IMG/VR virus record: IMGVR_UViG_3300048691_000025 | Location: 1-29,923 of that record | Reading direction: 5' to 3' (one strand) | DNA from: a virus | DNA: 29,923 nucleotides | Shown: piece by piece, positions 7,116 to 29,024 of the stretch | Layout of the letters: the number at the start of each line of letters is the position of its first letter | How positions within the stretch are numbered: the stretch's first letter is position 1 | The notes under the pieces: generated by a model | Seen by the model: only the letters and a program-made list of their open reading frames with translations | What the model was told of the DNA's origin: nothing | Database searches by the model: none | Made by a program: the position numbers and the translations under genes

Positions 7116-7117
7116 AG

Positions 7118-8212
7118 TTAGTCCAAATCAATCACCGATGACCTACGAGTTAATGTGTGCTGCTCTGTGAACGTGATGTTCAGTGTGGTAGATATTGGGT
7201 CGTTGTCGTGCATCCTACCTGCCATACTATTGACCGTGAATTCTGATATAAAACAGTCTGGGATGTGGGGGATAGAGTCAATCCGGTTCCCCATATGGTC
7301 ATTGAATTCTACGACGAACTTGTCGGGGTAGCCATACAAAAGATCATCCACCAATTCGCTGGGGTGAATAGAGTATCGAAGTTGTCTAATGATTTTGTTG
7401 ATAATGGCGGCTTCTTCCCGAGAAGTTGGCACCAAAGGGAATTGAAAGCTATGCCGACGCAACTCCATGCTATCGAAAGATGTTTCGTACCGTGGGTTGA
7501 TGCTTATGCCAGCGGCACTAGAAATTTGATTTCTCGTTTCGGCCCCAATTCCACCAAATGCAACATTGTGAATACCTTGTGCCAAAGTTTGTGATTTCAT
7601 TTTGTCAAGATATGAATTAAGTGCAGCAGACAATGCAAACGCCGCACCAGCCCCTGCTGCGCCAACAACTGCACCCGCCATAGCACTTTTGATGCCTCCA
7701 TTTTCGGACTGGTCAAATGCATTCATGGCTTTATCAACAAGGTATGAGCCAGAAAAGTTTGTTGTATGTGCCGAATAGCCCTGCATGATGTTTGGGGGCA
7801 TTGGTAGACAAATCCTGTACAAAGGTTTGTCTTGTTCTTTAGAATCAATCCTACGCTTATATGAATAAGCCTTGATGACCATATATGGACCAGATTGAAC
7901 TTTGTCACGGCTTCGCAACCCTATAGGGAATTCTAAGGTTTCGATTTTGTTCTTTTGGGTTTGATTTATTAGTCGCTTAGGGTCGAACTTATTTTCGGTT
8001 GATTCTGTGGTGGCAGCATTTGCGCCAGATGAAGTTACTAATGTATTTTTCTTTGTTGTTTCGTTTGTTTCGAAAGTATCGGCGGGAACAACCCCAATGA
8101 CATTACCAGCTTCGTCAAATATGGGTTTCATAGGAATACCATCTATGAAATTTTTTGTTGGCGTTGCTTTATTAGCTTCATACCGTGCGCGGTTTGTATC
8201 GACTCCTGCCAT
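7118..8212 (-). CDS. 48: Baseplate tail-tube cap protein, gp48-like
   Basis: 364 aa, near the T4 gp48 length. The first 95 residues are polar; the middle has an Ala/Gly-rich hydrophobic stretch (about 180-197); the C-terminal third has I-N-P-R-Y-E-T-S-F-D-S-M-E-L-R-R-H-S-F-Q-F and P-T-S-R-E-E-A-A-I-I-N-K-I-I, then Y-P-D-K-F-V-V-E-F, the typical gp48/gp54 pattern. gp54 is a possible alternative, being related. In T4 it sits on the baseplate and starts the tail tube. The ATG at 8212 has AAAGGA upstream, and that site lies in a hairpin shared with the end of the hydrolase gene. Confidence 0.75.
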   Translation of the reverse strand: MAGVDTNRARYEANKATPTKNFIDGIPMKPIFDEAGNVIGVVPADTFETNETTKKNTLVTSSGANAATTESTENKFDPKRLINQTQKNKIETLEFPIGLRSRDKVQSGPYMVIKAYSYKRRIDSKEQDKPLYRICLPMPPNIMQGYSAHTTNFSGSYLVDKAMNAFDQSENGGIKSAMAGAVVGAAGAGAAFALSAALNSYLDKMKSQTLAQGIHNVAFGGIGAETRNQISSAAGISINPRYETSFDSMELRRHSFQFPLVPTSREEAAIINKIIRQLRYSIHPSELVDDLLYGYPDKFVVEFNDHMGNRIDSIPHIPDCFISEFTVNSMAGRMHDNDPISTTLNITFTEQHTLTRRSSVIDLD

Positions 8213-8238
8213 AATAGTTCCTTTGTTTTGGAACTATT
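8213..8238 (-). promoter_or_regulatory. Hairpin covering the gp48 ribosome-binding site
   Basis: A perfect 9-bp inverted repeat, AATAGTTCC and GGAACTATT, separated by 8 nt. In the minus-strand RNA its second arm contains the GGAA of the ribosome-binding site and its first arm contains the stop codon of the upstream hydrolase gene. Ribosomes ending there would open the stem, so this may couple the two genes. Confidence 0.6.
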
Positions 8239-8698
8239 TACCGACCAACCTATAAAACTGGTGACCACCGATAGCGACAGTCTTTACCATTTTGCTAGAC
8301 GACCAATCAACATCTAATAAAGAACTATGAAAGTGCGTAGAACCATTCGTCACATCGGCAACCCCATATAGAACTTGCATGGCTACCTTGTTAGCCAATT
8401 TCCATTGTGATGATTCTGTGATACTAACACCAGAACCAACCCAAGAAAATTGCATGGGTTGGTTTATGACTTGGCAAATACCACTAGGGAACTTTGGGTG
8501 CTTTGTACGGTTAAGCACAACATGACCTACTGCGACCATGCTGCGCTCACCAGTACCCCTTGCTTCGTGGTAGATTACCTTTGCCAAGCAATCCACCACC
8601 TCTTTCGATTCTACTTTAACGAATATTGGATTCTGCGAATAAAGAGTCTTCGGGATAAGGCTCGTCGAAAATAGTAGAATCGAAATCGCTATCTTCAT
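8234..8698 (-). CDS. SleB/CwlJ-type cell-wall hydrolase (probable endolysin)
   Basis: 154 aa from ATG 8698. An N-terminal hydrophobic segment (A-I-S-I-L-L-F-S-T-S-L-I-P, residues 3-16) looks like a signal peptide or signal anchor. The rest matches the Hydrolase_2 (SleB/CwlJ) family: C-L-A-K-V-I-Y-H-E-A-R-G with the likely catalytic Glu45, then G-H-V-V-L-N-R, F-P-S-G-I-C-Q-V-I-N, Q-F-S-W and V-T-N-G-S-T-H-F-H. This family cleaves peptidoglycan glycan strands. An in-frame ATG at 8725 is possible; neither start has a good ribosome-binding site. The gene lies just before the baseplate block. It could be the endolysin, exported by the host Sec system. Confidence 0.85.
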   Translation of the reverse strand: MKIAISILLFSTSLIPKTLYSQNPIFVKVESKEVVDCLAKVIYHEARGTGERSMVAVGHVVLNRTKHPKFPSGICQVINQPMQFSWVGSGVSITESSQWKLANKVAMQVLYGVADVTNGSTHFHSSLLDVDWSSSKMVKTVAIGGHQFYRLVGK

Positions 8699-8834
8699 AA
8701 AGACTTTGAAACTTGCTGTTGACATAGGTGTTCGTTTTCTTGACGTAGTTATACAAAGTGCCATCAAGAACAAACTGGCTCCCTAGATAACTTGGGGAGT
8801 AGTCGCCGACAGCTTCGATTAAAATTTTGCTCAT
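8616..8834 (-). CDS. Hypothetical protein (72 aa)
   Basis: I chose ATG 8834 because GAGGAA lies eight bases upstream; the longer frame to 8864 would overlap the preceding gene. The C-terminus is strongly acidic (E-D-S-D-F-D-S-T-I-F-D-E-P-Y-P-E-D). It overlaps the start of the hydrolase gene by about 80 nt in another frame, unusual even for this compact genome. Function unknown. Confidence 0.6.
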   Translation of the reverse strand: MSKILIEAVGDYSPSYLGSQFVLDGTLYNYVKKTNTYVNSKFQSLYEDSDFDSTIFDEPYPEDSLFAESNIR

Positions 8835-9494: not shown

Positions 9495-9657
9495 TTCGAG
9501 TCCTTTCGATGGTTGTTTTCATTTCTGTTATAGCGGCATCTGTACATGGACCTGCTAGTACGTGTTCAGAAGTGCTTTCTACGATTTTTGTAGTTGGTAG
9601 TTTATCACCAATTACAAATGTTGTCAAGGTTGTTGCTAATATTACTTCAATAATCAT
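9457..9657 (-). CDS. Small signal-anchored hypothetical protein (66 aa)
   Basis: ATG 9657 overlaps the previous stop as ATGA. A short N-terminal hydrophobic segment (residues 2-16) precedes a polar, Thr-rich body with two cysteines. Its 3' end overlaps the next gene by 38 nt. A TM plus short soluble body is compatible with a spanin-type protein, but no coiled coil or lipobox is clear. Weak call. Confidence 0.5.
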   Translation of the reverse strand: MIIEVILATTLTTFVIGDKLPTTKIVESTSEHVLAGPCTDAAITEMKTTIERTRIAKIIRITCRNV

Positions 9658-10241
9658 ACCATAAATTTCTTGAAGATTTCTACTTGCTTGTCTTTCATAG
9701 CAGCAGCAGCAATACGAGCAGCAGCAATACGAGCAGCAGCAATACGAGCAGCATTAGTAGCAGCATAAGCAGCAATACGAGCAGCAGCATTAGTAGCAGC
9801 ATCAGCAGCAGCATAAGCAGCATAAGCAGCATCAGCAGCAGCATCAGCAGCATTAGTAGCAGCATTAGTAGCAGCATAAGCAGCATAAGTAGCAGCATTA
9901 GTAGCAGCCCAAGCGGCATCATAAGCAGCCTTCAATTCTTCTACAGTAGCATCACCATGAGCAAACCGTTCGGCTACATCAAGTGCAGCAATACTACGCC
10001 GGTCCGTCATCAGGTGCTGCACTTCCCGAGCAAAGGCAACCGCCATCAGCCGCTTCTCCTTGTCGTAACCATCTACAGCACGTAGGCACCACAAAGCATC
10101 ATCAATGCCGTTGCTTTCTAGGATTGTTAAAAGGCTTAGTTCTACATCGTCTGCTTGAGTTTTGCCCAAGTGCTTCAATAACTTATCCCAACCATCTTTA
10201 CAAGGTTCTTGTTCACGGATTTTGTTCAAAGTAGTTTTCAT
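9654..10241 (-). CDS. Conserved phage protein with Ala-rich repeat tail
   Basis: 195 aa from ATG 10241, which has GGAG five bases upstream and a promoter in front. The N-terminal 110 residues include C-K-D-G-W-D-K-L-L-K-H-L-G-K-T, D-D-A-L-W-C-L-R-A-V and M-T-D-R-R-S-I-A-A-L-D-V-A-E-R-F-A-H-G, a pattern I know from many phages, sometimes labelled an immunity-like protein. From about residue 113 to 187 the sequence is almost only Ala with Tyr, Thr, Asn, Asp, Arg or Ile (A-A-Y-A-A-T-N type units), forming a long helix. The C-terminus (K-Q-V-E-I-F-K-K-F) is ordinary. Function unproven. Confidence 0.8.
   Translation of the reverse strand: MKTTLNKIREQEPCKDGWDKLLKHLGKTQADDVELSLLTILESNGIDDALWCLRAVDGYDKEKRLMAVAFAREVQHLMTDRRSIAALDVAERFAHGDATVEELKAAYDAAWAATNAATYAAYAATNAATNAADAAADAAYAAYAAADAATNAAARIAAYAATNAARIAAARIAAARIAAAAMKDKQVEIFKKFMV
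9700..9915 (-). repeat. Imperfect GCTGCT-based tandem repeats inside a gene
   Basis: The minus strand repeats GCT codons with TAT, AAT, GAT or CGT ATT at regular intervals. Three near-identical 15-nt units (codons A-A-A-R-I) lie at about 9704-9750. Units are multiples of three, so length changes would keep the frame. Confidence 0.85.
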
Positions 10242-10267
10242 AAAGGCTCCAAAAGTTCGATAGACGA

Positions 10268-10273
10268 ATTGTA
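10268..10273 (-). promoter_or_regulatory. Promoter -10 box (TACAAT), TCGT family
   Basis: TACAATTCGTCTATCGAAC on the minus strand, 27 nt before ATG 10241. A TTTACT sequence 18 nt further upstream may be the -35 box. The leader is nearly identical to the one before the gene at 24809. Confidence 0.7.
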
Positions 10274-10304
10274 GCACACCTTTCTACATAAAGTAAATAC
10301 TTTT

Positions 10305-14680: not shown

Positions 14681-14874
14681 TTTGGGTGCTCGCATTGTAC
14701 TTTACCGTGGCTAACAACTTCTAGCCAACAATTCCTAGAACATTTCTGCCACGAATTTCCATGACCATCCTCGATAGATGGGTTGGCAAAAATCTTGGCA
14801 AAATTCTCGGCATATAGCGCATCGTTGCGCTCTAATCTTGGTAAAGAACCTTTACCACCATCAGACATTTTCAT
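14668..14874 (-). CDS. Conserved small phage protein with M-S-D-G-G-K-G-S motif
   Basis: 68 aa from ATG 14874, whose TATGA overlaps the stop of the polymerase C-part. It begins M-K-M-S-D-G-G-K-G-S-L-P-R, which I recognise from a widespread small phage protein of unknown function (usually M-S-D-G-G-K-G-S-x-x-R-P). The C-terminal 20 residues hold four cysteines (K-C-S-R-N-C-W and Q-C-E-H-P-K-C), a possible zinc site. Start could also be ATG 14868. Confidence 0.7.
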   Translation of the reverse strand: MKMSDGGKGSLPRLERNDALYAENFAKIFANPSIEDGHGNSWQKCSRNCWLEVVSHGKVQCEHPKCPK

Positions 14875-16202
14875 AGGACAAACCTTCTTTCTGTACTCCA
14901 ACCAACTACATCAGCAACCCTCTGTAATGGTTCCTTAAAAAACTTGGCAAACATTGCATGCCTATCGACAAATTGTTCGATTCCAAATTCAGGCGGAATC
15001 TTGTCGGAGAATGCAATGCACTCCGCTTTTGTGGGGTTTGGTGTAACCAACGCAGCAACCTTTATCTTGTCACCAGACTTGATCAATTGGTACTTCCCAG
15101 TCAGCTTCTTGGATTGTATCATATTGTTGTATGCACATGCTCCCTTCAAGTGGTATGGTGTCCCTTTGGTTGGAACCCCATCAATAATGTACTGGGTAAG
15201 GTTGTTGGCAGAACTTGCAGCGGTCAGTAGCGATAATTCTTCGTTCATATAATCACTCTCGACCTTTTTGCAAAATGCTTGGAAGGTTTTTTCATCACCA
15301 GAGAAGAAAATCTTGTAGGCATCTTTAAGCCTATCTCGACACCATTTAGGCGTAGAAGACCTTTGCGATTCCAGTCCAGTAACCTTCTGGTCCGGTGTGG
15401 CGTACCGTACACCTTCCATATCAAAGACCTCAAACACAAACCGCTTCTTGGCTACAATGATGCCTGTAGAGATTGCTTCTCGCTTCATGTATAGGCGCTG
15501 CTTCATCCCATTGGTGTCTTTGGTGATTTCGTCCATACCACCAGCAATCACTTGGGCAAGTTTTCCTTGGCAGAACTTGTCAAGAATATCGACCTGCTTT
15601 TCTTTGGGAATATCTTTGGAGACATTCTTCATCAGATTTGTCATGTCAATATAATTTGAGTCCGTATCTCCTGCTATGACTTTGATAGCGGGTTCGCCAC
15701 TTTGACCAATTTTCAGACCATATGCATTGACAATGTTTTCATTGTTTTGGATAACGGCTTGTCCAGTCAATGTGATAGCACTTGCCAAATCCACATCGAA
15801 GAACCTGAAATGTTTGTTGCCTAACGCACCATAACCTATATGTTAAATGTGATACGCTACGACCACACTGAAGTTTATTACAACTTTCCTGTATGTCACC
15901 ATACAGAGCAGACTATCTCTTAGGCTGTTCTAGCCCCCGCGCACTTCCCATCGCTTGATGGTACGGTATTTCTACCTAGTCGTTACACCCGATTTAACTT
16001 GGCACGGTATTGTCTTGCTTAACAAGAGTTCCACCGTTTTCACGCGGTTTTCTATTGGTATCCCTACCAAAAGCGCCTATCAATTAAGCGAATTTGCTAA
16101 AACTTTGTAAGCAGAATCAAGGGTGCCATAAGTGGATATGAGTCCATCTACGCGCTCTTTTTCTGATAGCAACCCCTCTAATGACATTGAGGATAAATCC
16201 AT
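14871..16202 (-). CDS. 43: DNA polymerase C-terminal part (gp43B), spliced gene
   Basis: Join of exon 1 (16202-16087) and exon 2 (15834-14871), 359 aa. Exon 1 begins at ATG 16202 with AAGGAG upstream and ends K-V-L-A-N-S-L; exon 2 begins Y-G-A-L-G-N. Together they give motif B of T4-type family B polymerases. Exon 2 then has G-D-T-D-S (motif C, D95 and D97), the K-K-R-F site and a thumb region. Without splicing the frame stops after 40 codons, losing motif C. The other half, with exonuclease and motif A, is encoded at 24848-26296; the two must associate to form an active enzyme. The gene lies downstream of 62 and regA, its usual place in T4. It has its own promoter at 16232. Confidence 0.88.
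15835..16086 (-). ncRNA. Group I intron in the DNA polymerase gene (252 nt, no ORF)
   Basis: Boundaries follow from restoring the N-S-L-Y-G-A-L-G-N codons. The 5' exon ends in U and pairs with an internal guide: C-G-C-U then U pairs with AGGCG at 16074-16078, giving the usual U-G pair at the splice site (16087 with 16077). The intron ends in G (15835). Core elements are a Q-like AATACCGTGCCAAG (15998-16011), an R-like GTGTAACGACTAGG (15975-15988) and an S-like AAGAGATAGTCTGC (15908-15921); GACTA and TAGTC pair as P7. No homing endonuclease is present, so mobility would depend on one supplied elsewhere. Confidence 0.85.
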
Positions 16203-16231: not shown

Positions 16232-16237
16232 ATTATA
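16232..16237 (-). promoter_or_regulatory. Promoter -10 box (TATAAT) for polymerase C-part
   Basis: TATAAT on the minus strand, 29 nt before ATG 16202, with TTTACA about 15 nt upstream as a possible -35. It lets the C-terminal polymerase gene be transcribed on its own. Confidence 0.6.
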
Positions 16238-16300
16238 CCACATATGCAAAATTGTAAATACACCAGTCCTAATAATTTTAACAATAAGGGTAAACCCCTA

Positions 16301-16468
16301 ATGTCCAACTACATTAACTTCGCCACTGGCGCATTGATACTAACTTTAGTTATGTCATACGTCAGCTACCTAGCCATAGAATTCATTGATGAATCCGTTG
16401 GTGTAACGCTTCTATTTGTACTGTTTATTTTTTCCACTATCGGCATGTGTGGGTGGGTCTTGGCATGA
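16301..16468 (+). CDS. Small membrane protein (55 aa)
   Basis: Two hydrophobic segments: A-T-G-A-L-I-L-T-L-V-M-S-Y-V (residues 7-20) and V-T-L-L-F-V-L-F-I-F-S-T-I (about 33-45). I favour ATG 16301 over ATG 16244, which would add a polar 19-residue tail and has no ribosome-binding site; AAGGG precedes 16301 at a long spacing, inside a small hairpin. First of three plus-strand membrane genes placed against the surrounding replication genes. Function unknown. Confidence 0.6.
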   Translation: MSNYINFATGALILTLVMSYVSYLAIEFIDESVGVTLLFVLFIFSTIGMCGWVLA

Positions 16469-16821
16469 ATCAGGTTATCAAGCCGATGTTGCCGCAAGAC
16501 ACCCAAGCAATTGATGTAATGAGCTTTGGCAATATCATCATAATGCTTCTACTATCTTTTCTATCTACCAAGCTAGAAACCGATCTACCAACCAGTGCTA
16601 TTGCCGCAGTAGCCGCCCTATCATTCATATCTATCTACATAAATAGAATGACCCCTCTAAGAGTCTTTACACAATGGATTCTTGGAATGCTCTTTGCATA
16701 TACCGCCACAAGCGAGATTGCAAGAACATTTAATTCACATTCTGCGACAATGTTAATCCTAGGGTTATCGAACTTTTATGCAGCAATAATCAACATCAAC
16801 TTACTACTAGAAAAAGAATAA
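16465..16821 (+). CDS. Multi-pass membrane protein (118 aa)
   Basis: ATG 16465 overlaps the previous stop (ATGA), implying coupled translation. Four hydrophobic stretches at about residues 21-34, 45-59, 69-86 and 96-115 suggest a four-helix inner-membrane protein with very short loops. No family recognised. It could be a holin, or a superinfection-exclusion protein like those often found near replication genes; nothing decides. Confidence 0.65.
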   Translation: MNQVIKPMLPQDTQAIDVMSFGNIIIMLLLSFLSTKLETDLPTSAIAAVAALSFISIYINRMTPLRVFTQWILGMLFAYTATSEIARTFNSHSATMLILGLSNFYAAIININLLLEKE

Positions 16822-16825
16822 TAAA

Positions 16826-17152
16826 ATGGATAAGGCTGCACCACTATTCCTTCAATTGCTAACAAGTCTACCTGTCTGGTTCACTATTGTTTTGGGCCTA
16901 GGTTCTCTAGGCATTTCAGCATATGTGTACTTCAAGCAAATTAGCATCAAAGAGGCCACATCAGTAGGCGATATTCAGTCCAAGCAAGTTGAGATGTTGA
17001 TTTCACAACTGACTGCACAATCTTCTGAACTACACAGCCTAAGTGAACAACTAAGCGAAGCCCGTAAAGAACTTCGTGAGTTATATGAGCAGAACGTGGA
17101 CTTGATGAAACGAATCCGCGAACTAGAAGAAATTATCAGGTCGAAGCCATAG
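16826..17152 (+). CDS. Membrane-anchored coiled-coil protein (108 aa)
   Basis: One transmembrane helix (W-F-T-I-V-L-G-L-G-S-L-G-I-S-A-Y-V, residues 18-34) is followed by a long charged coiled coil (about 46-105; L-S-E-Q-L-S-E-A-R-K-E-L-R-E-L). This is the architecture of inner-membrane spanins such as lambda Rz, though no partner outer-membrane lipoprotein is evident. It closes the plus-strand membrane cassette and its end overlaps the convergent gene by 17 nt. The spanin role is a guess. Confidence 0.65.
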   Translation: MDKAAPLFLQLLTSLPVWFTIVLGLGSLGISAYVYFKQISIKEATSVGDIQSKQVEMLISQLTAQSSELHSLSEQLSEARKELRELYEQNVDLMKRIRELEEIIRSKP

Positions 17153-17353: not shown

Positions 17354-17761
17354 TTACTTCCTTCCGATTTTGTACTTCTCAATAAGTTGCCATTCTTGTG
17401 CCCACTTGGATGTTAACACAAAAACGAACTGGTCTGCAACTTCTTTAATATTATCTGGTGTATGGAGAATCTTCACCAAACCCCAGTCAGACAGCATTGT
17501 AGCAATCTTTTTAGTTCTTCCCAAGTCAATATCGTCTAGTGTTGTTTTTCTACCATCTAGCGCCATTAGCTGCTTGAAGTGGCAGATGTAGTATTTGCCA
17601 CGCTTGAATAGGATGTTGCAAGATTGATAGATGATCTTTTCTTGCTTATTCGCAATCCCCATCCGGCGTAATGTTTCTCTAATGATTAGGAAGTCGTCGT
17701 CCGATTCTATAGAAACCTCAATGAAACCTGCGATGATTTGTTGTACTTGTTCTTCAGTCAT
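17354..17761 (-). CDS. regA: RegA translational repressor
   Basis: 135 aa; T4 RegA has 122. Strong resemblance through D-F-L-I-I-R-E-T-L-R-R-M-G-I-A-N, I-Y-Q-S-C-N-I-L, G-K-Y-Y-I-C-H-F-K, the M-L-S-D-W-G-L-V-K-I segment and the ending W-Q-L-I-E-K-Y-K-I-G. RegA binds near start codons of early phage mRNAs and blocks translation, including its own. The N-terminus is about 10-15 residues longer than in T4. It follows gene 62, as in T4. A hairpin upstream takes up part of its ribosome-binding site. Confidence 0.92.
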   Translation of the reverse strand: MTEEQVQQIIAGFIEVSIESDDDFLIIRETLRRMGIANKQEKIIYQSCNILFKRGKYYICHFKQLMALDGRKTTLDDIDLGRTKKIATMLSDWGLVKILHTPDNIKEVADQFVFVLTSKWAQEWQLIEKYKIGRK

Positions 17762-17855: not shown

Positions 17856-18242
17856 CTAGACAGTACCGCCATATTCTTTATCCGCAACTAATGTGGCTAG
17901 TTGCTGCTCTGTAAGGACGTAGCAAATCTCTCCAGCAGACTTTTCAGAGATGCCATAGGTATCCATCAAAGTCTTTGTGTAGGTGGCCTTCTCGGGCTTC
18001 TCCAGCCTTGCAAACCTACGACCTTTTGGGATAAGGTATAGCATAGTTTCATAATGCTCTTTGTTACCAAGGCTATGCAGATTAACCTCATTGACCAACC
18101 CTATCAATTGCTTCTGGTAGGAGAGCAGTCTAGCAATGGGAAACTGTGGGTATATCTTTGCTGCGGCCTGTGGAGAATCAGAAGTCGCAATGAGGTTTAC
18201 TTTAGTCTCGTTGATAGACTTGATAAAATCAACTAGCGTCAT
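17856..18242 (-). CDS. 62: Clamp-loader small subunit gp62-like
   Basis: 128 aa. The opening D-F-I-K-S-I-N-E-T-K, a mid-segment with L-V-N-E-V-N, L-I-P-K-G-R-R-F-A-R-L and T-Y-G-I-S-E-K-S-A-G-E-I-C-Y-V-L-T-E-Q-Q pattern matches gp62 of T4-like cyanophages (F-D-Y-L-K-S-I-N, A-N-E-M-N, K-R-F, Y-Y-G, L-S-x-x-Q). T4 gp62 itself is longer (187 aa). It works with gp44, not seen here, to load the gp45 clamp. Its position directly upstream of regA supports the call. Confidence 0.75.
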   Translation of the reverse strand: MTLVDFIKSINETKVNLIATSDSPQAAAKIYPQFPIARLLSYQKQLIGLVNEVNLHSLGNKEHYETMLYLIPKGRRFARLEKPEKATYTKTLMDTYGISEKSAGEICYVLTEQQLATLVADKEYGGTV

Positions 18243-18414
18243 TGGTGACTTCTTCTGGCTTTTGTTCTGGTTCCGTGATAGCAGACCACAGCGTCATCAA
18301 CAGAAAGTATGTAAAAAACCACGCCAATGTAGAGGCAATTTGGTCTTGCTTTTCGTTATGTACAAGAATCGACATACCCGTACTAAGCAACCCGACAATC
18401 ATAGCAACAATCAT
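18229..18414 (-). CDS. Small membrane protein (61 aa)
   Basis: Two hydrophobic segments: M-I-V-A-M-I-V-G-L-L-S-T-G-M-S-I-L-V (1-18) and L-A-W-F-F-T-Y-F-L-L-M-T-L-W (30-43), then a polar acidic tail. AGGA lies seven bases before ATG 18414. Overlaps gene 62 by 14 nt. Function unknown. Confidence 0.6.
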   Translation of the reverse strand: MIVAMIVGLLSTGMSILVHNEKQDQIASTLAWFFTYFLLMTLWSAITEPEQKPEEVTNDAS

Positions 18415-18426
18415 AAAATTTCCTTT

Positions 18427-18810
18427 TTAATAAGAGATATCACCAGACCTCGAATAAGAGGTCTTTCCGGTTAGTTTGGCATCGAGTACATATACAATCT
18501 TTTGTTTGTAATTCCCTTTGTCAATGTCTTCTTGGTAGACATAAGAATTTTCTTCGTACTCGAAACTTTTATAGAGGTCTGTTAATCGTTCCACTTTTTC
18601 TTGAGGCAGTTGATAAGACCAATCTTTTTTATCACGGCAGTCCTGAAGTCTGCACATTTCAAGATAGAACGCTAGAGTTTGTTTTACCAACCTAACTTCT
18701 ACTAGATTTGGGGTTAAATCCATAACATCACCAACGATACCGTTCCAGAGCATTATATCTGGATTACCTTCTATGGTTTGTAGAAGTTCGATCAGTTTTG
18801 ATTTTTTCAT
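18427..18810 (-). CDS. Conserved hypothetical phage protein (127 aa)
   Basis: The N-terminus K-L-I-E-L-L-Q-T-I-E-G-N-P-D-I-M-L-W-N-G and following G-D-V-M-D-L pattern is common in small phage proteins (E-L-I-x-x-L-x-x-I-x-G-x-x-x-x-x-x-W-N-G). The C-terminal half is charged, with V-Y-V-L-D-A-K-L near the end. AGGAC precedes the ATG. Function unknown. Confidence 0.65.
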   Translation of the reverse strand: MKKSKLIELLQTIEGNPDIMLWNGIVGDVMDLTPNLVEVRLVKQTLAFYLEMCRLQDCRDKKDWSYQLPQEKVERLTDLYKSFEYEENSYVYQEDIDKGNYKQKIVYVLDAKLTGKTSYSRSGDISY

Positions 18811-18859
18811 TTTACTTGTCCTGAGAAAATTTTATCAAATTGTTGAAACATTCGGTAGC

Positions 18860-19027
18860 TTAAATTTTTACAAGGTAACCCAAATGGGCCAATGAAGCGA
18901 AAATTCCATAAATTGTCATCGAAAACAAAACAATTTTGATGGATAGGTTCACTAGAGTTTTAGAACTCCACGCCAACATAATCCACGCCATAAAGATTGT
19001 AGAGAGAATCAGGTAAGTAGTAATCAT
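18860..19027 (-). CDS. Small membrane protein (55 aa)
   Basis: ATG 19027 has AAGGAA seven bases upstream and a TATAAT promoter further up; the frame ends at TAA 18862-18860. Two hydrophobic segments are visible: L-I-L-S-T-I-F-M-A-W-I-M-L-A (6-19) and I-K-I-V-L-F-S-M-T-I-Y-G-I-F-A (30-44). Function unknown. It fills what would otherwise be an empty gap. Confidence 0.65.
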   Translation of the reverse strand: MITTYLILSTIFMAWIMLAWSSKTLVNLSIKIVLFSMTIYGIFASLAHLGYLVKI

Positions 19028-19055
19028 AACAATTTCCTTAGAGTTTAATAAACGA

Positions 19056-19061
19056 ATTATA
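19056..19061 (-). promoter_or_regulatory. Promoter -10 box (TATAAT), TCGT family
   Basis: TATAATTCGT on the minus strand, 29 nt before ATG 19027, overlapping the stop codon of the upstream gene. Confidence 0.65.
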
Positions 19062-19524
19062 ACACGGGTTTCAACTTAAATTTCAAAATAGATGCATTGG
19101 TAGGAATCTTAAAAGATTTTCCCAACTTTCTGGAAGGCCCATCAATGTGCTGCATCAGTGTAAATTTGCAGTCGGGAAACATCTTTGATGCCTCTACGAT
19201 TACATCAATAAAATCAGTATCGTTAGAAACTATCGTAACAGACTTAGCGCCATCCGAACAAACCTTCACCACCGCCATTGCAATATAGCTATCTGTAGAC
19301 TCTTTACCCTCGCAAGATGGTTCAATAATCGCAATATTCTTGTTTTGTAAAATCTTCTTTGGTGTCGTTGCTCTTGAATCCTTGACCCAAGCATAGTCAT
19401 ATGAACTATCTGTAGATAGTTTCGCAGCTACTTGAACCGCCACATTGTCGCCATCAAAGAAGACTACATTCTTCTTGGTGGGAACTTTAGTTTTAATAAA
19501 AAGAGATTTTAAAAATTCTATCAT
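19057..19524 (-). CDS. NYN/PIN-like ribonuclease-fold protein
   Basis: 155 aa from ATG 19524 (GTG 19530 also possible; no clear ribosome-binding site). V-V-F-F-D-G-D-N-V (residues 20-28), an acidic middle (E-G-K-E-S-T-D-S-Y-I-A-M) and S-V-T-I-V-S-N-D-T-D-F-I-D match the NYN branch of PIN-like domains, which cut RNA with three or four metal-binding acids. These are D24/D26, the mid-protein E/D and the N-D-T-D pair. The N-terminal 15 residues are basic and hydrophobic. Its target is unknown; it could take part in phage RNA turnover or defence escape. Confidence 0.7.
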   Translation of the reverse strand: MIEFLKSLFIKTKVPTKKNVVFFDGDNVAVQVAAKLSTDSSYDYAWVKDSRATTPKKILQNKNIAIIEPSCEGKESTDSYIAMAVVKVCSDGAKSVTIVSNDTDFIDVIVEASKMFPDCKFTLMQHIDGPSRKLGKSFKIPTNASILKFKLKPVL

Positions 19525-19550
19525 CGACACATGAATATTTCTGTAGACGA

Positions 19551-19556
19551 ATTGTA
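19551..19556 (-). promoter_or_regulatory. Promoter -10 box (TACAAT), TCGT family
   Basis: TACAATTCGTCTA on the minus strand, 26 nt before ATG 19524. Confidence 0.6.
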
Positions 19557-19567
19557 GCATGAATACT

Positions 19568-20032
19568 TCACTCAGCATCAATGTTGTTGCAATTGAATAT
19601 GTGCGTGAAATCAAATGTTGCATAGACATGGGACTTTGCATTTATCAAAGATTTGTCTATGATCTTGCCATCAATAACTGTAGTTGCATGGCGGCTAATA
19701 ATCAGCACAAAACGACCCTTTGGGTTTTCTTGAATAAACCGACCAACGCTAATGCCGAGTTTGTGCGTCTTGTTGATTTCTAAAGTCTTAAAAATCCGTC
19801 CCCACTTTTCACCATGAACGGCAATGTTCTTTGCGCCAGCCAATTCGTAAGCCTTTGCAAAGTTACGGAATTGAGCACCTTTGCGGTCTTTGCGCTTGCC
19901 GATGGTTTTTAAAATTTGATGAGATTCGTTGTATTGAATTCCAGAAGCATTCGACAATGAACGGACGGTGCAGTCGTTCAGTTCGGCAGAAGATGTTGCA
20001 CCTGCGTATTCTGGTTTGATGTAAGTTGTCAT
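19568..20032 (-). CDS. Conserved phage protein with cysteine-peptidase-like motifs
   Basis: 154 aa from ATG 20032 (TAGGAGA upstream). The N-terminal L-N-D-C-T-V-R-S-L-S-N-A-S-G-I-x-Y pattern and the later G-R-F-V-L-I-I-S-R-H-A-T-T-V-I-D-G-K-I-I-D are conserved in a phage family. They place Cys21, His115 and Asp126 in the order of a papain-like catalytic triad. A peptidase, deamidase or transglutaminase-like activity is possible but unproven. It has its own promoter. Confidence 0.65.
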   Translation of the reverse strand: MTTYIKPEYAGATSSAELNDCTVRSLSNASGIQYNESHQILKTIGKRKDRKGAQFRNFAKAYELAGAKNIAVHGEKWGRIFKTLEINKTHKLGISVGRFIQENPKGRFVLIISRHATTVIDGKIIDKSLINAKSHVYATFDFTHIFNCNNIDAE

Positions 20033-20060
20033 ATACAATCTCCTAAAGTCGATAGGACGA

Positions 20061-20066
20061 ATTGTA
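20061..20066 (-). promoter_or_regulatory. Promoter (TTGCAA, 17 nt, TACAAT)
   Basis: Minus-strand TTGCAA and TACAAT with exactly 17 nt between them, followed by TCGTCCTAT. It lies before the gene at 20032 and is nearly the same as the promoter at 21148. Confidence 0.75.
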
Positions 20067-20124
20067 CATGACTTTCCTAGGTCTTGCAATAGTCGTTAAA
20101 TATTTCTAAACAATTGGAATAATT

Positions 20125-20880
20125 ATGTATCAAACAAACTACAGCATTGCAGACATTCTTCGTACAATGAACGAATCTACGATGAATGAAATTAAAAATA
20201 CCAAGTCCAAGAAGTCGGTTACCCCAATTCAACAGCCTATGGATGGACTTACCATAGACCAACACAAGAATAGAAATTCCAAGCACATATTTTGGAAAGG
20301 TCATCTTCCAAAATTCAATCGTGGAACTCAAGAATGGGAATATTCTGGAGACAATATTTGGGGAGGGTCGGCAAACATTAGACGCGATGACGGAAAGTTA
20401 CTTTACACAAGAACTTCACCAGATAAGATTGTTTTAGAACATCAGCTAATCTCAAAAAGCAACGGGGTTGATGGAGAACCAGTTATCAAATATGCAGCGG
20501 TTCATAAGATTCCAAATTCAAACCACGAAGTTCAATATTCACAACATTTTATGGCTAGGGTTCACGACTACAACGATAATGGAACTCAAATTACAAAAGA
20601 CAACAATCCTAGGAGAATCCCCTCCGCAAGTGATATGCATGAAGTATTGAACTCCCTACATAAGAACATAGTCAAACAAGGAATCATTCCATCTAAAGGA
20701 AATGCTGGTTGGGTGGCACATTCGTTAAAACATAACATTTATATACCAATCGTGGGACATTCCCATAACGGAGTACATACACTTCACGTTAATACAATTG
20801 TTCCAAACATCTCGGAGCATGAAACAAAATCTATATTTCTTATCGAAGGGATTTTAGACTTCCCAAGATTCGACATATGA
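20125..20880 (+). CDS. Hypothetical protein, possible virion cargo (251 aa)
   Basis: Lone plus-strand gene, with GGAA eight bases before ATG 20125. The first 20 residues (Y-S-I-A-D-I-L-R-T-M-N-E-S) resemble, more weakly, the leaders of the other candidate cargo proteins. The body has W-K-G-H-L-P-K-F-N-R-G, an aromatic middle and a His-rich C-terminal part (H-S-H-N-G-V-H-T-L-H-V-N) that could be a metal or catalytic site. No family recognised. It overlaps the convergent gene by 27 nt. TTAAATAT precedes it by about 22 nt. Confidence 0.65.
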   Translation: MYQTNYSIADILRTMNESTMNEIKNTKSKKSVTPIQQPMDGLTIDQHKNRNSKHIFWKGHLPKFNRGTQEWEYSGDNIWGGSANIRRDDGKLLYTRTSPDKIVLEHQLISKSNGVDGEPVIKYAAVHKIPNSNHEVQYSQHFMARVHDYNDNGTQITKDNNPRRIPSASDMHEVLNSLHKNIVKQGIIPSKGNAGWVAHSLKHNIYIPIVGHSHNGVHTLHVNTIVPNISEHETKSIFLIEGILDFPRFDI

Positions 20881-21120
20881 TTCTTCTATGTCATTCTCAT
20901 CTATAGATGGATTAGCAATTTCCGAGACATAGCATTCATAGTATTCCAGATCGGGTTCACTATCATAGTCGGTTGGGGTACTATCGTACTTGGTATACAA
21001 GACACCATCTTCATGAATCAACGTCTTTGGAAATTCCTTTGTGTCGATAGGAAAATCCGTTAGCATTACCAATAAGGTTTTGTTTTCCTTGACGTGCTTG
21101 AATGTTGGTTTGAATGTCAT
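20854..21120 (-). CDS. Acidic hypothetical protein (88 aa)
   Basis: AAGGAA precedes ATG 21120, and a strong promoter lies upstream. The C-terminal half is very acidic (D-E-N-D-I-E-E-S and similar); the N-terminal part has T-L-L-V-M-L-T-D-F-P-I-D. Small acidic early phage proteins often inhibit host enzymes, but nothing specific supports that here. The 3' end overlaps the convergent gene. Confidence 0.6.
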   Translation of the reverse strand: MTFKPTFKHVKENKTLLVMLTDFPIDTKEFPKTLIHEDGVLYTKYDSTPTDYDSEPDLEYYECYVSEIANPSIDENDIEESYVESWEV

Positions 21121-21147
21121 ATTTGATATTCCTTGTGGTTAGGACGA

Positions 21148-21153
21148 ATTGTA
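21148..21153 (-). promoter_or_regulatory. Promoter (TTGTAA, 17 nt, TACAAT)
   Basis: Minus-strand TTGTAA and TACAAT separated by 17 nt, followed by TCGTCCT. Spacer and flanks closely match the promoter at 20061. Confidence 0.75.
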
Positions 21154-21182
21154 CATGACTTTTTGCAGTCTTACAAGAATTA

Positions 21183-21614
21183 TTACAAATTTACTTTATG
21201 TTGCTCAACCACAACGCCACCATCTATAAGGTCTTCGACCCCCTGCATGTCCCTATAAGCATCACCATAGACAACCCGGCGAATGCCTACAGCAAGCATG
21301 TTGGCGGCACAATGACCACAGGGTGCCAAACTCACGTACAAAGTTGCTCCATCCAGCGATACGCCTTCTCTAGCAGCCTTATTGATACAGGCTTGTTCTG
21401 CATGGATGACATTCGGTTTAGTTACAAGAACTCCACCAATATCGTCTTCTAAAACATTACCCAAAGCCTTTGGTAAGCCATTTACACCGGGGATGATGAT
21501 GCCGTTGCTTGTCACAATGGCGGCACCAACCTTTGCACGAATGCCCCTAGAAAGGCTTGCATGTGCCATTGCACAAGCCATGTAGGTCTGGTCTAGTTCA
21601 AGCTGGGTTGCCAT
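21183..21614 (-). CDS. dCMP deaminase-like zinc enzyme
   Basis: 143 aa from ATG 21614. The zinc and catalytic motifs are H-A-E (H71, E73) and P-C-G-H-C (C99, C102), with the N-terminal helix Y-M-A-C-A-M-A-H-A-S-L-S-R. Such enzymes deaminate dCMP to dUMP, supplying thymidylate synthase. The ThyX gene is directly upstream, giving a two-step dCMP to dTMP pathway in one unit. It is shorter than T4 Cd (193 aa); cytidine deaminase of the same superfamily cannot be ruled out. A TTG start at 21623 is possible. Confidence 0.8.
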   Translation of the reverse strand: MATQLELDQTYMACAMAHASLSRGIRAKVGAAIVTSNGIIIPGVNGLPKALGNVLEDDIGGVLVTKPNVIHAEQACINKAAREGVSLDGATLYVSLAPCGHCAANMLAVGIRRVVYGDAYRDMQGVEDLIDGGVVVEQHKVNL

Positions 21615-21619
21615 ATTCT

Positions 21620-22561
21620 TCAATCAAACTTGCAGTGGTTTGGAATGAATTGGCGATACTGGAACCAGCCTCGCAAATTACCCGAGTAAGTAGCACCATC
21701 TCGTCGGATGTGGGTGACACCTTCGGGCCATGCCATGATGTTCATAAACTTTACATCGGGACTGATTGGGCTACCTTGGTGCTCGGTTGGACTTGCATGA
21801 ACCCGACTACCTTCCAACAACCTACCAAAGATTTCTTCGGCCTTTTCCATGTTAGTATTAGTGTTCCTGTAAGAAACTTGCGCACAGCAACTTGCCGATA
21901 ACTTCAATGCATCTTGTGCACCAATCATGGCACCAGTATCTGTGTAGTAGCTACGGATGCCGTATTCGTTGTATGCTGTATCCACATAAGGGACGTGCCA
22001 TTCGCCTTCTAGCAAAACTTCCGGGACACTTGTATCCATTGCGACTTGTATGCACTTAGCAAGTTCTCGAATCTCCGGCAATGCATCTTCGTGGTCGCGT
22101 AGCCATAGGAAGTTATTCCAGTCGGTTGCTGTAACAACAACCTTCATCATCTGGAATGGTTCTAGTGGCCTAGAGGCCCACTGCTTGTGACCACCAATCA
22201 CATCCAAAGCTGCGCAGGTTTCTACGGCATCTTTGATAGCCAGTCGCCACTCGCCAACAGCATCGGTCAATTGGTCACCAGACAATTCTTCTTTAGCCTG
22301 CATGCCAGATTGTTTCTTACCCCAATGCACCGGGATTGCCGGAAAATCTTTTACTTGTTGAATAGCTTTGTTCAAAGGCACTGCACGAGAACTTGAAGAA
22401 TTTTTAGATAGGGCGCGATGGGTTAGCAGTTCGGCGTGTGCATAGCGATGATACACCAATTCTAATGTAGTAAGTCGGATTCCTGCTTCTGTAATGCTAT
22501 CAGCAATCACCGTACAAGAAATCCCATTAGGGCCATCAATTTTAGTTTTTTCTTTGGTCAT
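21620..22561 (-). CDS. thyX: Flavin-dependent thymidylate synthase ThyX
   Basis: 313 aa. The ThyX signature R-H-R-x-x-S-x-N-x-x-S-x-R appears as T-H-R-A-L-S-K-N-S-S-S-S-R (residues 47-59), preceded by R-Y-A-H-A-E-L. Later W-G-K-K-Q-S-G-M-Q-A, R-P-L-E-P-F, D-W-N-N-F, L-R-D-H-E-D-A and E-G-E-W-H-V-P-Y-V fit the family. The enzyme makes dTMP from dUMP using FAD and methylene-tetrahydrofolate, unlike the ThyA-type enzyme of T4. The first signature Arg is Thr here. The start overlaps the Lar-like gene (ATGA). Confidence 0.9.
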   Translation of the reverse strand: MTKEKTKIDGPNGISCTVIADSITEAGIRLTTLELVYHRYAHAELLTHRALSKNSSSSRAVPLNKAIQQVKDFPAIPVHWGKKQSGMQAKEELSGDQLTDAVGEWRLAIKDAVETCAALDVIGGHKQWASRPLEPFQMMKVVVTATDWNNFLWLRDHEDALPEIRELAKCIQVAMDTSVPEVLLEGEWHVPYVDTAYNEYGIRSYYTDTGAMIGAQDALKLSASCCAQVSYRNTNTNMEKAEEIFGRLLEGSRVHASPTEHQGSPISPDVKFMNIMAWPEGVTHIRRDGATYSGNLRGWFQYRQFIPNHCKFD

Positions 22562-22809
22562 ATTCTATTGTTCCATTTCATAATAGCTTCGTTTTTTGTG
22601 TCGCCCGACATTTCCGCACCACAACCACCAGAGGTAGTAGGGCAGTGCATACTGTAGCACCATTGCTCTTTCGGTACTTCTCTAAACGGATGATAAGACC
22701 TACCATATGGCTTATCTATCCAACCAACCCCATTTGGGTAAATCGTATCCCCATTATCTAGGTCAACATCTTTGCCACAAAAGGGACAAGGCTTCATAAC
22801 AATATTCAT
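22558..22809 (-). CDS. Lar-like zinc-ribbon protein
   Basis: 83 aa from ATG 22809, which overlaps the previous stop. K-P-C-P-F-C-G at the start, C56 and C63 with C-G-A-E, and the ending T-K-N-E-A-I-M-K-W-N-N-R match the Lar (restriction alleviation) family layout: C-P-F-C-G, C-x-x-C-G-A, E-A-I-x-x-W-N-R. Rac-prophage Lar moderates type I restriction-modification. Many phages encode members whose activity is untested. The insert between the cysteine pairs is longer than usual. Confidence 0.7.
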   Translation of the reverse strand: MNIVMKPCPFCGKDVDLDNGDTIYPNGVGWIDKPYGRSYHPFREVPKEQWCYSMHCPTTSGGCGAEMSGDTKNEAIMKWNNRI

Positions 22810-23060
22810 TTTGCAAAAACCACATGCTTCTTGATAAACCACTTTGAAATTACGGGATTCTCGTTGGTATCTTCATCAATGCAAATGTCTGCCACAGTTT
22901 TGCGAATGTTTCCAAAACGAATACTATCCCAACCACAGTCAATCTCGTGCTTCAGACCATGAGACAGCGCCCACTCATTCTTAGTCAGTCGGTATGTGAA
23001 ATTCTTACCATAATCGCATTCGTAGAACTCACCGACATTTTCTTGGTTGTAACGGTACAT
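22806..23060 (-). CDS. Hypothetical protein (84 aa)
   Basis: AGGAG before ATG 23060 and a promoter upstream. Soluble, with E-I-D-C-G-W-D-S-I-R-F-G-N-I-R near the middle and two other cysteines. Its last codons overlap the Lar-like gene. Function unknown. Confidence 0.65.
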   Translation of the reverse strand: MYRYNQENVGEFYECDYGKNFTYRLTKNEWALSHGLKHEIDCGWDSIRFGNIRKTVADICIDEDTNENPVISKWFIKKHVVFAK

Positions 23061-23091
23061 AGAAACGCTCCTGTTGAATTAAGATGTTTCA

Positions 23092-23097
23092 ATTATA
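23092..23097 (-). promoter_or_regulatory. Promoter -10 box (TATAAT)
   Basis: TATAATTG on the minus strand, 32 nt before ATG 23060, leading the unit that runs through thyX. Confidence 0.6.
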
Positions 23098-23102
23098 ACG
23101 TA

Positions 23103-23369
23103 CTAATAATCCAGAATCCAAGAATCTTCCAAAGAAAGTTCTACTGTTTCAGTTCCAGATAATAAGAGTCGCCATTTTTGTGCTGTGTCTTTGGCCCGAT
23201 TTAACATTGCGTAATCGAACCAACCCCATCGCTCGTACTGGCTTCTAGAACGCACGAGAACCGCGATTGCGTCAATTTCTATCGACCGCTGGTACTCAGC
23301 TACCTTCTTGGCTTCGTAACGCTCTACGCACGCTAGAATACGTCGAGATGAATGTGTTGTGTGAGTCAT
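23103..23369 (-). CDS. Hypothetical protein (88 aa)
   Basis: ATG 23369 overlaps the previous stop (TATGA) with GAGG upstream. Basic, mostly helical N-terminal half (A-C-V-E-R-Y-E-A-K-K-V-A-E-Y-Q-R) and an acidic C-terminus. No family recognised. Confidence 0.65.
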   Translation of the reverse strand: MTHTTHSSRRILACVERYEAKKVAEYQRSIEIDAIAVLVRSRSQYERWGWFDYAMLNRAKDTAQKWRLLLSGTETVELSLEDSWILDY

Positions 23370-24367
23370 AGAACCTCGTCAAATTGTTTAGCATTCTTCA
23401 TAACGATATCTGCAATCTTAGCATCATCTAGTAAAGGGATAGAATGTGGTTGTAATAGGAACTCATTCTTTTTAAGGTACTGCATAAATTGACCTAAACC
23501 CTTGCCGGTATATCCCGTTAGCTTAGAAACAATGTCACCATTGAATCGAGTCTTGATGTAACGGGTTGCCGCAAGGTCTTTGGTGACACTTTGATACTTC
23601 TCCAAAGCAACGAACCCAAAATAGTCAAAGATATGCTGAAGGTGGACCGTTTTATCTTTAGACTTTACATAAGGGTTGATGACTGGGTTTGCTTCGTTGT
23701 ATGCAAGAAATTCGCGGTATGTTGTGCGTTTCTTGTCGCGCATCTTTGCAATGGTGTTAAGGTTCTCTAGTTTATAAGACTCTGGACTAAAATACTTTGA
23801 GGTACGGACAAACTCAAAAATGTCTTCAAGTGTATCAAAGCCAGCATCAAACCTATCGGCATCAAGCCCCAAAAACTCTAATGTGGTTCTATGGCGTAGC
23901 GTCAACACAACTTCACCAACGATATTATCACCATCGCGGATTGGCATAGTTAGGCCACGATGACCGTGCTTCAACCCTAGCTGGTGCGCAAGTTTCCCTA
24001 TAATGTTGCCCAAATCGTTGTACGAAAAATAGCTCAATGCATAGTCGAACTCACTTTTGTTGACATGAATAATGTCTACTTGTAGTTCATCGTACTCAAA
24101 TGAAATTACAGAACTATTCCTAGAGATTTCTTTTGACTCTGGGAATATTTTCCTTACAGCATCAGTCGAAAATGGTTTGTTGTCATAGGTAGAATATAGA
24201 ATGTCGGCATCTCCAAATGATGCCTTACTTCTATATGATTCTATCAACTGACTGCGCAATATGCCATTTGCATATTGCATATGGTTAATTACTTGACCAA
24301 TCTTGTCGAAGTATTCGGAGGCATTATGTCGGCGAGTTAGGCCTTCGGTTAGTGCGTTTCCTCCCAT
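23366..24367 (-). CDS. Nucleotidyltransferase-fold protein (333 aa)
   Basis: ATG 24367 overlaps the previous stop (TGATG). Residues 47-57 read S-K-A-S-F-G-D-A-D-I-L and 93-102 D-E-L-Q-V-D-I-I-H-V, giving D53, D55 and D98: the acidic triad of polymerase beta-type nucleotidyltransferases. The N-terminal M-G-G-N-A-L and the mid-region K-L-A-H-Q-L-G-L-K-H-G-H-R-G-L are typical of a phage family related to tRNA nucleotidyltransferases. The C-terminal 150 residues are helical. Substrate unknown; one more nucleotidyltransferase lies at 3212. Confidence 0.75.
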   Translation of the reverse strand: MGGNALTEGLTRRHNASEYFDKIGQVINHMQYANGILRSQLIESYRSKASFGDADILYSTYDNKPFSTDAVRKIFPESKEISRNSSVISFEYDELQVDIIHVNKSEFDYALSYFSYNDLGNIIGKLAHQLGLKHGHRGLTMPIRDGDNIVGEVVLTLRHRTTLEFLGLDADRFDAGFDTLEDIFEFVRTSKYFSPESYKLENLNTIAKMRDKKRTTYREFLAYNEANPVINPYVKSKDKTVHLQHIFDYFGFVALEKYQSVTKDLAATRYIKTRFNGDIVSKLTGYTGKGLGQFMQYLKKNEFLLQPHSIPLLDDAKIADIVMKNAKQFDEVL

Positions 24368-24558: not shown

Positions 24559-24560
24559 AA

Positions 24561-24809: not shown

Positions 24810-24835
24810 AAAGGCTCCTAAAGTTCAATAGACGA

Positions 24836-24841
24836 ATTGTA
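24836..24841 (-). promoter_or_regulatory. Promoter -10 box (TACAAT), TCGT family
   Basis: TACAATTCGTCTATTGAAC on the minus strand in the 38-nt gap just downstream of the polymerase N-part stop. Confidence 0.7.
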
Positions 24842-24847
24842 CCACAA

Positions 24848-26296
24848 TTATCCACGGCGCTTGATAATTTCAGCCTCAATCAATTCCAGTTCTCGCTTAT
24901 ATTCCAACTTCTTTTTCTTCGCCGCCTTGCGCTTGTCAAAAATTCTTTCTGCAAGGATTGGAATGAACCCAGCAACTTTCCGACTACACAAAACCCCATT
25001 GCCAGATAAGGTTGCATCATGGCTTTCTGCAAATTCTTTCGCAGCGGCCCATTTTTCCGTTCGGTCAATTATATCACTGGGTCGGATAGAGGGCCACAAA
25101 TCCTTGCGCAAAACCGTTTCTGGGGAGATGTTGTTCTGAATAATGATAGATGGGTATAGCGACTCCAAATCGAAGCTGACTAACCACTCATAGAAGCCCC
25201 TAATCGGGTCTTTGACGAACGCACCTTCATACCCCTCACCTACCCCACCAGCCTTCGTAAAAGGGACGCATACGCCCAATTCTAGCAGGTAGTTGTGAAT
25301 CATCACATCCCATACTCGCACATTGCTCAAAGTGTCTTCGTAGTTCACCTTGGCAATGTATGCAACCGACATAACCATGTCAATAAAGTTTAGCTTGTCA
25401 TTAAGGTTCTTTACAAGCCTTACATCATGAATGTTGTACTCTACAAATTTTGCAGGGTGGTTTGTGTATTGCTCATAGAAACTTCCGGGAATTTCGATTT
25501 TCTTGTCCTTTAGCTCAACTTCGGCAATGAAGTCCAGCTTGTAACTTTCCCGAGTAATTAGTCGAAACTTTTTGTACAAGACCATCATATCAAGGTTCTG
25601 TACCCCGGCAATGTTTACCGAATGCTGCACCCTTCCAGTGTCATCGGTTTCTATGTTGAACTTCACCAAGCCAAATGGAGACAATCGCTTCATATCATCT
25701 TTACCTAAGACGACTTCGACCCGCTTGGCAATATACGGCATATCATAGCCTTGGCAATTCCACCCAGACACCCAATCTGGTCGAATCATAGACCAGTGCT
25801 GTACAAACTTTGCAAGCAACTCGGCCTCTGAATTGAATCGAACAATCCTTGCCGATGGGATTTCAATGCCTGTAATGTCTAGGGTTGTGTAGCAGAAGTA
25901 GGTGCCATTGAAAAACAACGTGACGCAATTGATTGGCGTATCTGCTGTTTCGATGTTTGGGAAAGCGTCCGTAACGGCATTCTCAATGTCTATGTAAACG
26001 CCTTTAATCTTTTTCAAATCATAGTCGTTACCATAGGTGTCATTGATAAGGGCGTATGAGAACCTATCAAAGCCATAGCAACCATTACCAAAAGACTTTG
26101 CAAAATCCCGTGCAGATTTTGTGTCGTTGAATTTGATGGGCTTTAGAACTTCTCCGTGGATGGTCTTGAAGTCTCCACGACCAGAAACGTATAGGGTTGG
26201 CTCTAGTGGGATTTCGCGGTAAAAGTCTTTGCCGTTATCATGCTCTACTACAAGAGCCTTGGTGCCGTACTGGGTGAATGATTTAAAAAATTTCAT
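24848..26296 (-). CDS. 43: DNA polymerase N-terminal part (gp43A)
   Basis: 482 aa from ATG 26296 (AGGAT upstream; the longer frame to 26335 lacks a site). It has the T4-type family B N-terminal domain, then exonuclease motifs I (Y-I-D-I-E-N, D103/E105), II (W-N-C-Q-G-Y-D, N180/D185) and III (Y-N-I-H-D, Y287/D291), and polymerase motif A (S-F-D-L-E-S-L-Y-P-S, D376). It ends after basic helices at A-E-I-I-K-R-R-G, in the fingers region. Motifs B and C are missing and are encoded at 14871-16202. T4 gp43 is one 898-residue chain; both parts here total 841. Alone it could proofread but not polymerise. Confidence 0.93.
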   Translation of the reverse strand: MKFFKSFTQYGTKALVVEHDNGKDFYREIPLEPTLYVSGRGDFKTIHGEVLKPIKFNDTKSARDFAKSFGNGCYGFDRFSYALINDTYGNDYDLKKIKGVYIDIENAVTDAFPNIETADTPINCVTLFFNGTYFCYTTLDITGIEIPSARIVRFNSEAELLAKFVQHWSMIRPDWVSGWNCQGYDMPYIAKRVEVVLGKDDMKRLSPFGLVKFNIETDDTGRVQHSVNIAGVQNLDMMVLYKKFRLITRESYKLDFIAEVELKDKKIEIPGSFYEQYTNHPAKFVEYNIHDVRLVKNLNDKLNFIDMVMSVAYIAKVNYEDTLSNVRVWDVMIHNYLLELGVCVPFTKAGGVGEGYEGAFVKDPIRGFYEWLVSFDLESLYPSIIIQNNISPETVLRKDLWPSIRPSDIIDRTEKWAAAKEFAESHDATLSGNGVLCSRKVAGFIPILAERIFDKRKAAKKKKLEYKRELELIEAEIIKRRG

Positions 26297-26300
26297 GGTT

Positions 26301-26317: not shown

Positions 26318-26323
26318 ACTAGG

Positions 26324-26329
26324 ATTATA
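26324..26329 (-). promoter_or_regulatory. Promoter -10 box (TATAAT) for polymerase N-part
   Basis: TATAAT on the minus strand, 27 nt before ATG 26296, in the short gap after the upstream gene. No clear -35. Confidence 0.6.
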
Positions 26330-26340
26330 CCACAAAAGTT

Positions 26341-27051: not shown

Positions 27052-27054
27052 ATT

Positions 27055-28968: not shown

Positions 28969-28974
28969 GTACGA

Positions 28975-29023: not shown

Positions 29024-29024
29024 G

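Follow-up and report, generated by a model that had tools for sequence, protein, structure and literature searches.

Two accounts (PMC2993671, PMC2988022), both citing a 2010 study by Petrov, Ratnayaka and Karam, describe for Aeromonas phage 25 a divided DNA polymerase gene together with an endonuclease-less group I intron, 25.g43B, within 43B, whose mobility is predicted to depend on a free-standing endonuclease; according to the same accounts, the 43A and 43B products copurify and show polymerase activity. Split and intron are likewise annotated in GenBank for phages Aes508 and Aes516. Pairs of an intron lacking a homing endonuclease gene (HEG) and a free-standing endonuclease nearby are known from the cyanophage psbA intron, the T7-like DNA polymerase intron and the ICP1 terminase (PMC10448857, PMC2814812), and the origin of such collaborative-homing arrangements has been stated to be unclear (PMC10448857).

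Here we describe a gp43 locus in a 29,923-nt stretch of DNA from a T4-like bacterial virus (IMG/VR record IMGVR_UViG_3300048691_000025), referred to in full as the window. Like Aeromonas phages 25, Aes120, Aes508 and Aes516, it combines a fingertip split, a short first exon and an endonuclease-less group I intron within motif B of the C-terminal half. The Aeromonas phages differ in that 43A and 43B are adjacent, separated by a GIY-YIG endonuclease gene in Aes120 and Aes508 and by a mere short gap in Aes516, and in that their intron (73–78 bits by Rfam) is 276 nt long and interrupts GCT T|TA GGT, 11 nt downstream of the site used in the window, as judged by comparison with the intronless 50AhydR13PP. 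Some phages of this 43A-43B group also carry split inteins at motif C. A group I intron has been reported in another T4-type gene 43, that of JSE (PMC2993671), but it lies in motif A (SFDLTSL|YPS) of a gp43 without the fingertip split. The SPO1-type DNA polymerase introns (I-HmuI) also occupy a phage DNA polymerase gene, although of family A and with the endonuclease inside the intron (table in PMC3073962). Unlike in the collaborative homing pairs, no endonuclease is recognised in the window, and the host gene itself is split.

Structure of the C-terminal half

The C-terminal half of gp43 is encoded by two exons (Table 1). Exon 1 starts at ATG 16202, with the ribosome-binding site AAGGAG just 5' of it, and translates as MDLSSMSLEGLLSEKERVDGLISTYGTLDSAYKVLANSL (16202-16087, minus strand); left unspliced, its frame meets a stop at most two codons into the intron and ends after 40 codons. 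Exon 2 reads YGALGNKHFRFFD... as far as the stop at 14871, and the only start codon of its own, GTG 15794, falls within a conserved part of the protein. Joined, the exons read ...AYKVLANSL-YGALGNKHFRFFD..., which is motif B of the family-B polymerases in its T4-type gp43 form (KVLANSL-YGALGN). The first tyrosine of exon 2 aligns with Y567 of the RB69 polymerase, so that the junction separates the motif-B lysine (exon 1) from the tyrosine (exon 2). The splice predicted from the U-G pair and the terminal G restores the frame exactly and with it the motif-B codons KVLANSLYGALGN, with AATTCGCT-TTATGG as the predicted spliced junction. Exon 2 matches Pfam DNA_pol_B with 27 bits, phrog_1918 with 307 bits and phrog_262 with 322 bits (profile positions 524-844 of 856), and catalytic motifs A, B and C of gp43 are present: SLYPS in the N-terminal half, KVLANSLYG across the splice and GDTDS in exon 2. 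An intein in place of the intron was ruled out, since exon 1 is preceded by a stop and opens with an ATG of its own, and every frame of the insert contains stops.

Table 1. Features of the gp43 locus in the window
Feature	Position	Strand	Remarks
gp43 N-terminal half (exonuclease and start of palm/fingers)	24848..26296	-	482 aa, ATG 26296
Extended -10 promoter-like site TGGTATAAT	26324..26332	-	before N-terminal half
regA	17354..17761	-	Pfam Translat_reg 124.8 bits; usual upstream neighbour of gene 43
Opposite-strand ORFs	16244..17152	+	between regA and exon 1; one Rz-spanin-like
Extended -10 promoter-like site TGGTATAAT	16232..16240	-	before exon 1
gp43 C-terminal half, exon 1	16087..16202	-	38 codons + 2 nt, ends KVLANS-L
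Group I intron	15835..16086	-	252 nt; helices P1-P9 and P7.2; no endonuclease ORF
P7 strands and the P7.2, P3' and P8 elements between them	15911..15981	-	15981-15977 (GACUA) / 15915-15911 (UAGUC)
gp43 C-terminal half, exon 2	14871..15834	-	YGALGN... to stop; motif C GDTDS

That the polymerase gene is split, that a 38-codon exon with a ribosome-binding site is hidden before an exon 2 lacking a proper start, and that the insertion falls within motif B had all been proposed in the original prediction; these points are borne out, and the proposed junction (16087/15834) and length of 252 nt proved exact. Automatic annotation misses the 38-codon exon, and the C-terminal half would consequently be deposited lacking both the lysine of motif B and any start codon.

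A group I intron within motif B

A focused Rfam search matched RF00028, the group I intron model, over its full length (1-253) at 16096-15889 on the minus strand with 62.5 bits (E 2.2e-15), against a gathering score of 50 bits. The default whole-window scan at the gathering threshold did not list the intron; as the focused search of a short stretch scores it well, this null result was dismissed as a loss in the fast filters of Rfam. The introns of two relatives, L214 and L226, were likewise missed with the default filters, yet matched on short stretches. Besides the P3-P9 core with its P7, the insertion has the splice-site wobble U16087-G16077 in P1 and a terminal G (G15835). A P7.2 helix is found as well, and by eye a P7.1 can be drawn for the window intron, in agreement with subgroup IA. 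No P10 pairing was established for the window intron.

Comparative evidence came from an alignment of 16 introns, all from gp43 genes, built by sequence and not fitted to structure. The group I structure including P7 is paired in 94.9% of the cells, with two-sided changes in 44 of the 60 pairs, the P1-P9 helices of this test being taken partly from the consensus of the alignment itself; RNAalifold alone recovers the expected helices, with covariation in 44 of 55 pairs. The covariation score was 0.671 versus 0.206 in shuffles, none of 500 shuffles attained the pairing or covariation of the real alignment, and when the partner columns were slid by 1-3 positions, the paired cells fell to 34-41%. 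Because shuffling never reaches the observed values and sliding makes the pairing collapse, the intron at 16086-15835 is not due to chance. P7 is invariant across the 16 introns and hence contributes no covariation signal. The U-G splice pair, the R/S core with P7 and the lack of an endonuclease ORF, all claimed from the sequence at the outset, stand after this analysis, and the group I covariance search proposed alongside them as a check was positive.

It is very improbable that the intron is dead and the C-terminal half a pseudogene, an explanation in whose favour it can be said that no placement of P6a was found on the window intron. The core helices P3, P4, P6, P7, P8 and P9 and the splice sites are nevertheless intact, the frame of exon 2 is open over its full length and retains GDTDS, no second copy of the motif-B codons was seen in the window, and gp43 is essential in T4-type phages. 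Most probably the intron RNA splices itself, with guanosine attacking after U16087 and the freed exon being ligated to U15834, which would restore motif B, and the C-terminal half made from the spliced message would assemble with the separately made N-terminal half into one polymerase.

Among phage records, exact-DNA relatives of the region amounted to a single weak match. A search with the P7-P9 pattern alone returned 119 stretches, none of those examined lying in gp43, so the intron class is widespread and uninformative about the site.

The N-terminal half and its surroundings

The N-terminal half matches Pfam exo1 (73.4 bits) and DNA_pol_B (57 bits) as well as phrog_262 (457 bits, positions 1-495). 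It can be aligned with the RB69 polymerase as far as residue 500 and ends at HMM position 485, next to 481 for Aeromonas 43A. The polymerase is accordingly divided at the fingertip into two ORFs, of which the N-terminal one matches phrog_2062 and the C-terminal one phrog_1918. ATG 26296 is the likely start of the N-terminal half, because the alternative TTG 26335 overlies the promoter-like site.

The two halves are 8.6 kb apart. The C-terminal half is still near the genes for clamp loader gp62 and RegA, matching the Aeromonas order (clamp-clamp loader-regA-43A-43B in Aes516). A free-standing N-terminal half also occurs in three relatives, L279 and L280 (99% amino acid identity each) and L281 (78%), and where these contigs continue, the sequence after it differs from that of the window, resembling window position 10278 onwards in L280 and containing thyX in L281. 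These comparisons point to a fluid gene order rather than to an assembly error.

The motif TGNTAYAAT, to which the promoter-like sites before both halves belong, occurs 21 times in the window versus 3.7 expected, and none of 100 shuffles contained as many; judging from this distribution, it is probably the promoter type of the phage. Its sites include 10276, 12972, 16240, 24844 and 26332 on the minus strand and 340, 2035 and 3180 on the plus strand, and it often sits in a repeated block of about 35 nt, GTGCTACAATTCGTCTATTGAACTTTTAGGAG, upstream of many genes. At exon 1 it is the extended -10 motif that is found, a sigma-70 scan requiring a -35 box having returned no site there.

Several other features of the window were recorded. 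The window has genes for the clamp (gp45) and for clamp loader gp62 as well as regA, the gp44 large clamp-loader subunit being unrecognised among the ORFs scanned (17856-29825). A 334-aa protein at 23366-24370 (minus strand) matches phrog_24943, labelled DNA polymerase, and in sequence resembles a nucleotidyltransferase of the pol-beta type, not a replicative polymerase. Dense periodic repeats of 9-15 nt occupy 9684-9965, inside ORF 9654-10277, which perhaps encodes a low-complexity structural protein.

Split and intron in related phages

Two pattern scans of IMG/VR, with patterns built from P7 and the exon-2 codons and hence blind to any split, revealed 11 further gp43 lineages that have both the fingertip split and a motif-B intron. 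The combination, regarded as unusual in the original prediction, is therefore a recurrent one, as phage 25 (PMC2993671, PMC2988022) and Aes508/Aes516 also attest. The exact insertion site of the window is used by two lineages, L214/L224/L231/L223 and L226/L213, whose introns score 73.4 and 70.0 bits by Rfam. In L214/L223 and L226/L213 the insertion likewise follows nucleotide 2 of the codon before YG, the U-G pair is formed with CGCU and the fingertip split is present; they differ in their intron core, 65% identical to that of the window, and in the spacing of the halves, which either adjoin or are separated by about 1.2-1.5 kb, the gaps of L226 and L223 containing antisense ORFs. Most other introns lie 12 nt upstream (L232, the L233 group, L253, L258/L235, L243, L239, L234 and L267), and that of L271 lies 9 nt upstream. 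Matches in L215, L219, L225 and L260 were discarded as chance matches to the patterns with no motif-B intron.

The fingertip split was found in 11 of the 12 scan-found intron lineages with readable context, compared with 2 among the 77 control gp43 loci that could be assessed, none of which (0/77) has a motif-B intron (Fisher p 2.5e-11, relatedness ignored). On a tree of 94 N-terminal halves, built by a quick method and with long branches, one of them bearing the window, split and intron need eight changes each; L232, which has both, is sister to L186, which has neither, and L233 is near L206, again with neither. Among independent pairs on this tree, the two traits change together in six of seven and in opposite directions in none (sign p 0.03). 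The nearest kin of the window is unsure, given its long branch. No close relative with an empty insertion site was found, a search with KVLANSLYGA matching only L323, which was rejected as a different, unsplit polymerase.

Split and intron might instead be independent accidents, the intron having arrived at motif B by reverse splicing or in an old event, with motif B and the fingertip simply being sites that tolerate or keep insertions. Group I introns generally persist longer at conserved sites (PMC2814812), intronless splits exist (L147 and L161 have the split alone), and in L268 a motif-B intron occupies a gene that is not split at the fingertip. We nonetheless regard this explanation as unlikely, since the traits change together six times to none, a sign test only at p 0.03 on a quick tree, and since the gap between the halves holds endonuclease-like genes of several types. 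Still less probable is that the intron has been kept as a regulator, with splicing at motif B delaying or gating polymerase production, for example in concert with exon 1 translation or GTP supply. Translation of exon 1 does stop just inside the intron, and a C-terminal half with its own promoter-like site could be tuned separately; however, no conserved regulatory element was identified, and intron-bearing lineages have intronless near relatives (L186 for L232, L206 for L233 and L210 for Aes120).

Genes in the gap and the proposed invasion cycle

Homing-endonuclease genes of phrog_655 stand between the halves in L232, L253 and L258 (107-146 bits), and the gap of L235 holds a 72-aa remnant of the same family. 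Vsr-like ORFs, weaker endonuclease matches, occur in the gaps of L243, L234 and L311, a GIY-YIG match in that of Aes120 and an HNH match in that of L210, the latter two slightly below the Pfam cut-off. By eye, the antisense ORFs in the gaps of L226 and L223 resemble GIY-YIG endonucleases, and no endonuclease family of Pfam or PHROG matched them. L214, L239, L233 and L271 have short gaps with no endonuclease gene, and L311 and L210 combine split and endonuclease with no intron. Several relatives thus have a free-standing endonuclease beside a HEG-less intron. No endonuclease, and so no free-standing one adjoining the intron, was recognised among the window ORFs scanned, and homing in the window phage is for this reason argued from its relatives only.

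We consider it likely that the intron of the window is self-splicing, lacks an endonuclease and owes its spread to collaborative homing, in a phage in which no endonuclease is recognised and the gp43 halves have moved apart. A free-standing homing endonuclease in the 43A/43B gap would have cut intronless motif B and so introduced split and intron jointly into further phages. Most simply, endonucleases would invade the fingertip, an intron would be gained at motif B by collaborative homing, and the endonuclease would then decay, all in a recurring cycle; the window, with no recognised endonuclease, halves 8.6 kb apart and a promoter-like site for each, would represent the last stage. From sequence comparison, split and intron look like the trace of repeated mobile-element invasion and not of a one-off event. 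With somewhat less assurance, we lean towards a convergent state of T4-type replicative polymerases: endonucleases of several unrelated folds would have lodged time and again in the fingertip gap and brought group I introns to three or four neighbouring positions in motif B, spaced by about 11-12 nt. The window would then be a late stage, its endonuclease lost and its gp43 halves no longer linked and under separate promoters.

Among the relatives, a single gene can be seen in most of the stages that a mobile-element cycle would produce: unsplit intronless polymerases, split genes with only an endonuclease, with both endonuclease and intron, with an endonuclease in decay or with only the intron, and unlinked halves. 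Such loci make the origin of collaborative homing directly testable.

Other interruptions of gp43 were observed in the same phages and beyond. In several phages with motif-B introns, the gene is interrupted at motif C or beyond it by inteins or intein fragments with endonuclease-like ORFs (L226 11393-11944, L223 2131-4853, L258 about 6409-8783, and Aes508/Aes516, here L010 and L009). A different split point, just after motif A, is seen in L169 (about 5036-5686) and L181 (about 5041-5710), with nuclease-like ORFs in the gap, that of L169 showing HNH-like residues by eye. Finally, gp43 is interrupted at HMM positions of about 288-297 in two lineages, L170 (2385-2775) and L234 (3677-4651; also L276).
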